64,000 bases of DNA from Actinomycetota bacterium (GTDB lineage Bacteria > Actinomycetota > Thermoleophilia > Solirubrobacterales > Solirubrobacteraceae). The stretch spans positions 62,001 to 126,000 of the forward strand of contig VAWY01000126.1 of the NCBI GenBank assembly GCA_005888335.1. The letters run 5' to 3'. Shown piece after piece: positions 51,952-53,888 of the stretch; the first letter of the stretch is position 1, and the number at the start of each line of letters is the position of its first letter. The notes beneath the pieces were generated by a model. The model was not told where the DNA came from. It did not search any database and saw only the letters and a program-made list of their open reading frames with translations. A program made the translations under genes and the position numbers.

Positions 51952-53388
51952 ATGGCGAGCGAGCTCGTCGCCCTGGTCAAGCACGACTGCCCGGTCTGCG
52001 ACCAGGTGCTGCCCGCGCTCGACGCCGCCGGGGTGCGCGTCGTGTCGCAGTCGGATCCGGCCCAGACCGCCGCGCAGGCCGCGCGGCTTGGTCTCCGTCG
52101 CGTGCCCGAGGTCGACGCCGACCTGGCGCTCTCCGAGCGGCTGGACCCCGAGGCGGTGCCGACGGTCGTCCTGCTCGACGGCGAGCGCGAGGAGGGCCGT
52201 GTCGAGGGGCTGGACCGCGCGCGGATCGCCGAGCTGGCCGCGCGCGCCGGCGCGCACCTCGACCTCGACGGCCTGCCCGAGCGCCGGCCCGGCTGCGCCT
52301 CGCGGACGCGTGATCCGGAGGTCGCGGCGCGCCTGGCCGCGCGCGCCGCGCGCCGCGAGGGCCGCCTGCGCGCCCGCGAGATCGAGATCGGCGAGCTCGA
52401 GGACGTCCACGAGGCGCTGCTCGCCCGCGGCGTGACCGACGGGCTGCCCGTCGTGCCGCCCACGCCCGAGCGGGTGGTCGGAATGCTCGAGGGCACGAGC
52501 CGCCATCCGCAGGACGTCGTCGGCGTGCTCCCGCCCTACGACGGCGAGGCGACCGTCGAGAAGGTCGCCATCAACGCGGTCATGGCCGGCTGCGCGCCCG
52601 AGCACCTGCCGGTCGTCCTGGCTGCGGTGGAGGCCGCCTGCCGGCCCGAGTTCGCCCTGCACGGCCTGGTCGCCACGACCCATCCGGCCGGCCCGGTCAT
52701 CGTGGCGTTCGGCGCCGACGCGGGGATCAACGCGGCGGGCAACGTGCTCGGTCAGGGCGCCCGCGCGAACCTGGCCATCGGCCGCGCGCTGCAGCTCGTC
52801 GTGCGCAACGTCGGCGGCGGGCGGCCGGGGATCGAGGACCGCGCGGCGCACGGCCAGCCCGGGAAGGTCGGGCTGTGCTTCGCCGAGCGCGCCGACGGCA
52901 ACCCGTGGCCGGCGCCCTACGAGCGCCCGACCGTGATGCTCATGGCACTCGAGGCGCCGCGGCTGATCGTCGACCAGCTTGCCCGCGAGCCGGAGGGCCT
53001 CGCCGCGTCGTTTGCGCTGGCCCTGGAGTCGGTCGCCCACCCGAAGCTGCGCCTGGCCTTCGACGCGCTGCTCGTCGTCGGTCCCGAGCACGCGCGCGTC
53101 TTCGCCGAGGCGGGCTGGAGCCGCGAGCGCCTGCGCGACCGGCTGTTCGAGCTGACGACGTCCCCGGCCGGCGAGCTGGTGCGCGGCGCCGGCGGCTCGC
53201 CCGAGGGGGTCGAGGCGCGCTTCGTGAGCGACCCCGCGGTGCCGGTCGCGAAGTTCGCCTCGCCCGACCGCATCCAGATCGTCCACGCCGGCGGCGACGC
53301 CGGGCTGTTCAGCATGGTCTTCGGCTCCTGGGCCGCCGGCGAGATCGGCTCGGCCCCGGTCACCGCGGAGGTGGACGCATGGGCGTGA
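51952..53388 (+). CDS. Thioredoxin-like (CPVC) protein fused to the large UGSC-partner domain
   Basis: A 478-residue protein. Residues 1 to about 100 look like a thioredoxin fold with the active site at Cys13-Pro-Val-Cys16. From about 155 on the sequence RGVTDGLPVVPPTPERV, DGEATVEKVAINAVMAGC and ARANLAIGRALQLVVRNVGG matches the conserved protein found next to UGSC selenoproteins; its function is unknown. Its last 10 bp overlap the start of the selenoprotein gene. The two products probably form one complex in which Cys-Cys and Sec/Cys centres exchange electrons. Confidence 0.8.
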   Translation: MASELVALVKHDCPVCDQVLPALDAAGVRVVSQSDPAQTAAQAARLGLRRVPEVDADLALSERLDPEAVPTVVLLDGEREEGRVEGLDRARIAELAARAGAHLDLDGLPERRPGCASRTRDPEVAARLAARAARREGRLRAREIEIGELEDVHEALLARGVTDGLPVVPPTPERVVGMLEGTSRHPQDVVGVLPPYDGEATVEKVAINAVMAGCAPEHLPVVLAAVEAACRPEFALHGLVATTHPAGPVIVAFGADAGINAAGNVLGQGARANLAIGRALQLVVRNVGGGRPGIEDRAAHGQPGKVGLCFAERADGNPWPAPYERPTVMLMALEAPRLIVDQLAREPEGLAASFALALESVAHPKLRLAFDALLVVGPEHARVFAEAGWSRERLRDRLFELTTSPAGELVRGAGGSPEGVEARFVSDPAVPVAKFASPDRIQIVHAGGDAGLFSMVFGSWAAGEIGSAPVTAEVDAWA

Positions 53389-53888
53389 CGATTCTCGACC
53401 CGACGCGCGAGGCCGAGGCGGTCGCGCGGCCGCTCGCCCCGCGCGCGATCCCCGCGCGGATCGCGCTCGTCGACATCCGCAAGCCGCGCGGGGACGTCTT
53501 CCTCGACGAGCTCGAGGCGCTCCTGCGCGAGCGCGGCTACGCGGTCGAGCGCGCCGCCAAGCCGACGTTCACCAAGCCCGCGCCGGTCGACGTGCGCCGG
53601 GAGATCGCCGCGCGCTGCGACGCCGTGATCGAAGCGCTCGCCGACTGAGGGTCGTGCGTGTCGTGCGGTCTGCGCGACGTGATCGGCTTCGAGGAGGACG
53701 GCCGGCCCGGGGTGCTCGTCGCGTCGTCGGTCTTCGCGGACGCGGCGACCGAGCAGGCCGCGGCGCTCGGCGCGCCCGACGCGCGGCGCGTCCTCGTCCC
53801 CCACCCCGTCCAGGACCGCACCGACGAGGAGCTGCGCGCGATGGCGCGCGCCGTCGTGCAGGATGTGCTCGCAGCGATCACGACGTAA
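53379..53888 (+). CDS. UGSC family selenoprotein, in-frame TGA (53646-53648) read as selenocysteine
   Basis: A 169-codon frame with Sec at residue 90. The sequence around the TGA reads EALAD-Sec-GSCVSCGLRDVI; the U-G-S-C order is the name-giving motif of the family. Similarity continues after the TGA (LVPHPVQDRTDEEL), so this is recoding rather than a true stop. A second downstream CxxC (CVSC) may form the redox pair with Sec. Gene tools will usually cut it into an 89-codon protein and a 76-codon fragment. SelA, SelB and tRNA-Sec must be elsewhere in the genome. An OsmC gene follows after 9 bp. Confidence 0.87.
53657..53681 (+). promoter_or_regulatory. Bacterial SECIS-like hairpin after the Sec TGA
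   Basis: GTCGTGC (53660-53666) pairs with GCGCGAC (53672-53678), including one G-U pair, around the loop GGTCT. Three further pairs (one C-G and two G-U) extend the stem to 53657-53681. The loop starts 18 bases after the TGA and opens with GG, agreeing with described bacterial SECIS geometry (about 16-37 bases, conserved G in the loop). Confidence 0.75.

Follow-up and report, generated by a model that had tools for sequence, protein, structure and literature searches.

We wanted to determine how one open frame in the window (the whole stretch of DNA analysed here, 64,000 nucleotides) is read. The frame 53379-53885, on the plus strand, is split by a single in-frame TGA at 53646..53648. Does this TGA end a short protein or encode selenocysteine (Sec), and what would the resulting selenoprotein do? 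With the TGA read as Sec, the gene (53379..53888) gives a product of 169 residues with Sec at residue 90, and 79 codons lie between the TGA and the TAA stop. A preliminary description of this DNA had proposed that the frame runs on for these 79 codons and that the residues around the TGA are D-Sec-G-S-C-V-S-C. We confirmed both: the joined frame contains one TGA only, within D-U-G-S-C-V-S-C. The start of the gene overlaps by 10 bases the 3' end of an upstream gene on the same strand, which the preliminary description does not mention and which we call the partner.

The UGSC gene and the hairpin behind its TGA

The joined protein matched the Pfam model of the UGSC family (PF24696) with 140.5 bits (cut-off 25) and the NCBIfam model UGSC_fam (NF041046) with 141.6 bits (cut-off 125). 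Since both scores exceed the cut-offs, we assigned the protein to this family, as had been proposed. Judged from its sequence, the gene is almost certainly a sound new member of the known UGSC selenoprotein family. Sec or Cys is required at the UGSC position, and the window has its TGA there, at residue 90. The residue opens a UxxCxxC motif (U90 G S C93 V S C96, 53646..53666), whose columns are conserved: among 40 sequences, columns 90-93 were invariant when Sec was counted as Cys, and column 96 was conserved in at least 90%.

A protein search returned 2606 homologues. Among the 120 listed, most were approximately 92-94 residues long. The five short ones that we examined (P0004, P0006, P0007, P0034 and P0035) all stop at the TGA, which agrees with the expectation that database entries of this family would be fragments. 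Two others, P0010 and P0027, are apparently frame-shifted. The preliminary description had regarded homologues that all end at the TGA as fatal to its reading; we found full-length forms (P0002, P0003 and P0115), in which Cys aligns with the TGA.

A scan of genome contigs, with search patterns that excluded the Sec codon, confirmed at least 328 relatives, and the best 80 were kept. Their record titles name Actinomycetota, Proteobacteria, Chloroflexi and Acidobacteria, and the nearest among them belong to Solirubrobacterales (L001, 73%; L002, 63%). In all 80 of these best relatives the UGSC codon is TGA. In comparisons with L129, L001 and L002, the part before the TGA gave dN/dS values of 0.24-0.40 and the part after it 0.32-0.55. 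Four further loci (L139, L142, L143 and L144) carry the motif GDUATC and represent a divergent branch of UGSC; partner-like domains lie near the gene in L139, L143 and L144.

The preliminary description had also placed a SECIS-like hairpin behind the TGA, with its GGTCT loop 18 bases away. The fold of 53646-53690 agrees: an inner stem of 10 bp (53657-53666 / 53672-53681, plus strand, spanning 53657..53681) carries the loop GGUCU (53667-53671), which starts after 18 bases. In the fold predicted from the window sequence only, an outer helix (53649-53654 / 53684-53689, spanning 53649..53689) extends this hairpin. The gene thus has a hairpin just after the TGA with a G early in the loop. The minimum free energy was -21.7 kcal/mol (z = -2.96; 2 of 200 dinucleotide shuffles were as good). 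Compared with synonymous recoding, the 10-bp stem gave P = 0.024 with codons from eight window genes (50000 draws) and P = 0.037 with codons pooled from homologues (20000 draws), while the free energy gave P = 0.006 (1000 draws). These values, which concern the window sequence alone, are modest. In the Rfam search nothing in the window exceeded the gathering score, and the two matches near the TGA were both at chance level.

The evidence from the family is much stronger than these single-sequence statistics. We aligned 82 rows, made up of the window, the 80 loci and an additional UGSC copy from L016 and comprising 70 distinct sequences; the stem reached at least 5 bp in every row. With the loop read as 3 bases, the mean stem was 7.07 bp, compared with a mean of 2.05 and a maximum of 2.79 in 500 synonymous shuffles. 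Five loop-proximal pairs were formed in all 82 rows; one of these five varies between G-C (56 rows), G-U (17) and A-U (9). The window copy thus shares with its family both HMMs, the UGSC motif, the Sec codon and the hairpin. It differs in its loop: GGUCU was seen in three rows only (window, L001 and L002), while the others had AGUGU (56), AGUUU (18), AGUCU (4) or AGUAU (1). The SECIS of E. coli fdhF has the loop GGUCU at a spacing of 18 bases. The hairpin of the window is equal to it in loop and distance and differs in that its stem is built from UGSC codons.

Selenocysteine machinery in the genomes of relatives

SelB was above cut-off in 22 of 26 genomes of relatives and in 2 of 14 controls. 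The gathering score for tRNA-Sec was passed by 19 of 20 genomes of relatives and also by 5 of 14 controls; therefore we counted only matches of at least 59 bits, which were found in 17 of the 20. Such genes also occur close to the UGSC gene. ARAGORN detected tRNA-Sec (tca) in 14 of the 80 loci, 11 of the 48 upstream neighbours that were scanned contain SelB-type domains, and SelA, SelB, tRNA-Sec, partner and UGSC share a single neighbourhood in seven loci (L004, L014, L029, L051, L052, L057 and L080). On the Paracoccus plasmid pFER4, annotated selB lies 3.3 kb from the partner. Hyphomonas sp. CY54-11-8 (L010) keeps the UGSC TGA, no SelB match in its genome reached the cut-off, and its partner match starts only at residue 278; this selenoprotein system is perhaps in decay.

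We analyzed two classes as a whole. In the class of L001, which is the likely class of the window, a UGSC match was found in 13 of 249 genomes, and 11 of them had a TGA copy; the copies of G490 belong to a divergent branch. SelB was above cut-off in 118 of the 249 genomes. Together with G002, which was known beforehand, there were 12 TGA genomes, with SelB in nine, SelA in nine, tRNA-Sec in seven and at least one of the three in ten. Three of the 12 had neither SelA nor SelB, and in two of these (G496 and G556) the search for tRNA-Sec also gave nothing. Incomplete assemblies would be a likely explanation for the missing genes. In G530 and G479, whose only UGSC copies are stop-free, SelA, SelB and tRNA-Sec were not found.

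In the class of G021 (that of L032, titled Actinomycetota), 79 of 296 genomes carry a close UGSC copy, counted as a match with E < 1e-26. This limit drops weaker paralogues, which are a mix of TGA and stop-free copies; G299 was also dropped, its match being confined to query residues 3-83 within an 86-residue frame. All 79 close copies have the TGA and all 79 have the partner. SelB was present in 74 of these 79 genomes vs 86 of the 217 without UGSC (Fisher's P = 1.8e-18, with related genomes treated as independent). The SelB list leaves out nine weak rows of 169, and the over-cut-off tally is 161 of 296. UGSC selenoproteins had been described as rare in actinobacteria: as a general statement this is not supported, given the 79 genomes in the class of G021, although in the class of L001 only 13 genomes of 249 have any UGSC match.

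Because the TGA, the protein downstream of it and the hairpin are all conserved, and because relatives carry the Sec machinery, we read the TGA as Sec and not as a stop. On these comparative grounds the gene very probably reads through the stop codon by inserting selenocysteine, which supports the selenoprotein reading of the preliminary description. The many short database proteins, with all five examined ending at the TGA, and the TGA genomes in which Sec genes were not detected would fit a true stop, with an 89-residue protein followed by a decayed or separately started frame. We regard this as highly improbable, as the best 80 relatives conserve both the TGA and the protein behind it, full-length Cys forms exist, dN/dS behind the TGA stays at 0.32-0.55 in all three comparisons and the hairpin is kept.

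The partner gene and a probable second Sec site in some relatives

The partner (51952..53388, plus strand) encodes 478 residues: an N-terminal thioredoxin domain (residues 1-100, 51952..52251) with CPVC at C13/C16, and a C-terminal domain with no Pfam match. NCBIfam has no family for it and gave only thioredoxin-type matches below cut-off. Its best named match is a Solirubrobacteraceae record, 93% identical; together with the nearest UGSC relatives, this makes an origin of the window in Solirubrobacterales most likely. Cys214 of the C-terminal domain (52591..52593) was conserved in 75 of 75 ungapped rows and invariant in 36 sequences. Among the best 80 relatives the partner stands upstream of UGSC in 76 loci, in 69 of them at most 100 bases away; the flanks of L012 and L078 contained no partner, even by profile search.

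Residue 115 of the partner, within a PGC motif (52294..52296), is Cys in the window and an in-frame TGA in nine relatives (L032, L067, L070, L074, L099-L102 and L130). In 103 aligned rows, a set in which a few genomes occur twice and to which the top matches obtained with a Sec-bearing query contribute, this codon was TGA in eight and Cys in 95, and nothing else was seen. The ninth TGA, in L130, comes from the class of L001. All eight TGA rows can form a stem of 6-8 bp with the loop CGGGC 20 bases past the TGA, and L130 has an equal hairpin (6 bp, CGGGC). The loop position was fixed after inspection of the Sec rows; when any loop with an early G was allowed, some Cys rows reached 5-7 bp and one reached 9. 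The partner of L073 has a Cys codon and yet a 9-bp stem with the loop CGACC at the same place, the only such case among the 95 Cys rows; this stem may be left over from an earlier Sec codon. SelB was above cut-off in all nine genomes with a TGA-bearing partner.

A tree of 119 partners places all nine Sec tips in one clade of 23, together with 14 Cys tips (support 0.70). Since Sec and Cys tips are mixed in one clade, the two residues were exchanged during evolution of the partner. A 2026 review (PMC13188914) tabulates 119 selenoprotein families and subfamilies; in the portion available, UGSC is listed and no such partner is, and none of the nine new families named in the accessible text of the deep-Sep paper (PMC12013277) resembles it. 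The listings and abstracts from literature searches and the accessible portions of PMC2398784, PMC9312934, PMC7539508 and PMC5029168 contain no mention of a Sec form. A UGSC/Unknown_1 fusion is mentioned in the available part of the 2008 paper (PMC2398784), and Unknown_1 may or may not be the partner. The Sec form would add one family to the selenoprotein inventory, and it shows Sec beside Cys inside one clade.

Relatives of the C-terminal domain were present in 24 plasmid records, and we examined 13 of them, selected by identity and with a view to variety. In nine of these UGSC is adjacent to the partner relative and in three it is part of the same chain; in L155 no UGSC was found by the partner relative. 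An Arthrobacter plasmid carries trxB, trxA, partner and UGSC consecutively, so thioredoxin is separate there and fused into the partner in the window. On a Roseovarius plasmid the order is partner, UGSC, trxB, and in Variovorax SRS16 trxB is found upstream of the partner at a distance of three genes. Of the 12 annotated plasmid regions examined, only three have an annotated trxB close to the pair. The Arthrobacter UGSC protein, a Cys form (L149:6982-7794), carries a NifU-like domain at its C-terminus (27.2 bits, cut-off 27).

In Variovorax boronicumulans the partner is fused to a clear UGSC domain (103 bits) with Cys at the Sec position. The single-chain form of Sporomusa matches UGSC weakly (28.3 bits), and that of Vibrio falls just below the Pfam cut-off (24.9 bits); the latter has Met at the Sec position and thus stands without the proposed active residue. 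The single-chain genes of Sporomusa and Vibrio (in L156 and L158) lie near genes for aconitase X and DUF126.

Among the genes near the pair on the plasmids are those for organic-acid transporters, CoA transferases and PEP mutase-like enzymes, which suggests a role in catabolism of small organic acids. We scanned 48 of 58 upstream and 47 of 65 downstream candidate ORFs, with the OsmC gene of the window substituted for its picked downstream ORF. Clustering of neighbours gave no fixed third gene, and the substrate could not be read from such variable genes. In the window, an OsmC-family gene (53898-54326) starts 9 bases past the UGSC stop and probably shares an operon with it. PADLOC gave no match.

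A proposed reductase and its known counterparts

Because the gene adjacent to UGSC regularly encodes a thioredoxin-bearing partner, we propose that the two act as one selenium-dependent reductase. A thioredoxin-fed selenoenzyme of two subunits is, in our judgement, rather probable. SelB, aided by the hairpin just behind, would read the UGA to give one chain of 169 residues. UGSC would then be the small, selenium-bearing subunit and the upstream partner the large one. Thioredoxin reductase would reduce the partner's own thioredoxin domain (C13/C16), and the cysteine of the PGC motif at residue 115, Sec in some relatives, would hand the electrons on. Sec90, together with C93 and C96, might then attack or reduce a small organic substrate at the subunit interface, perhaps near C214 of the partner. 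This chemistry of Sec90 is modelled on that proposed for GrdB of glycine reductase. We infer the UGSC-partner complex, the order of electron flow and the type of chemistry. More tentatively, UGSC proteins may provide the smaller subunit of a selenoenzyme that is fed by thioredoxin, widespread and so far undescribed. Such an enzyme would be distantly related to the glycine and D-proline reductases, and its large subunit, which has a Pfam-less domain, would in some lineages be a second, unlisted selenoprotein. With a partner that is regularly present, a supply of thioredoxin and a Sec site like that of GrdB, the proposal describes a testable enzyme.

UGSC could also be a real selenoprotein whose enzymatic role is a general one in thiol-disulfide or peroxide handling, with a partner that is simply co-regulated. 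Redox roles are expected for such selenoproteins in the accessible parts of the 2008 paper (PMC2398784) and the 2026 review (PMC13188914), and the OsmC gene 9 bases behind UGSC would fit an antioxidant function. We consider this unlikely: OsmC was the next gene in only 1 of the 47 scanned downstream neighbours, the partner is the upstream gene in 76 of 80 loci, Variovorax boronicumulans has it fused to UGSC, and the UGSC model does not resemble a thioredoxin. The pair might instead be a cofactor-dependent lyase or hydratase, in which UGSC just keeps a partner cysteine reduced. The aconitase X genes near the fused genes of Sporomusa and Vibrio would suit such an enzyme, as would the Vibrio fusion with neither Sec nor Cys at the UGSC position, and in Foldseek the best matches of the whole partner model were class I fumarases. 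Their TM-scores did not exceed 0.22, and in a second fold search the 50 matches listed included no fumarase and were occupied by residues 1-101, the thioredoxin domain. Such a lyase or hydratase thus seems to us quite improbable, and we keep to the two-subunit reductase.

The model of UGSC (pLDDT 91.1, pTM 0.86) has alternating strands and helices, with Sec90 between strand 82-88 and helix 91-106. Its best structural matches were generic flavodoxin-, TIR- and receiver-like folds, and thioredoxin was absent among the 50 matches listed. The model thus does not seem thioredoxin-like, although 50 listed matches do not prove that such a fold is absent; the 2008 paper, in its accessible part (PMC2398784), expects a thioredoxin-like fold for UGSC. 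No GrdB-like protein was among the fold-search matches listed, and a sequence search against solved structures gave nothing credible.

UGSC hosts are, to our knowledge, not the classic glycine-fermenting clostridia. GrdB-family matches were found in 9 of 16 UGSC genomes searched, and an in-frame TGA of their own was present in all ten genes that were read on and also in L097, with L087 left out of this count. One UGSC genome (L086) has a full-length GrdB-family gene with an in-frame TGA beside a GrdE-like gene, and L088-L097 are short GrdB-family genes with an in-frame TGA and the motif VP[VIT]UPxC. When UGSC was compared with ten GrdB-family sequences by hhalign, Sec fell on Sec (probability 90.8, E = 1.2e-6, one comparison). 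NCBIfam GrdB-type models matched weakly (E = 0.0037 for the window protein, 4.4e-4 for P0002). The partner gave an hhalign probability of 2.0 with the GrdB set and of 0.2 with the GrdE-like protein, and by this profile comparison we ruled it out as a GrdE relative. For the motif of GrdB and the role of thioredoxin we relied on the available part of the 2026 review (PMC13188914).

In summary, UGSC differs from GrdB and PrdB, which are selenoprotein B of glycine and D-proline reductases, in that the Pfam model GRDB (PF07355) did not match the window protein up to E 10 and its partner is not GrdE-like, and we do not class it as a member of GrdB. It shares with them the UxxCxxC motif (U90, C93, C96), aligns with them Sec on Sec and is likewise paired with a gene for a larger subunit. 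These likenesses make kinship between UGSC and GrdB likely but unproven.
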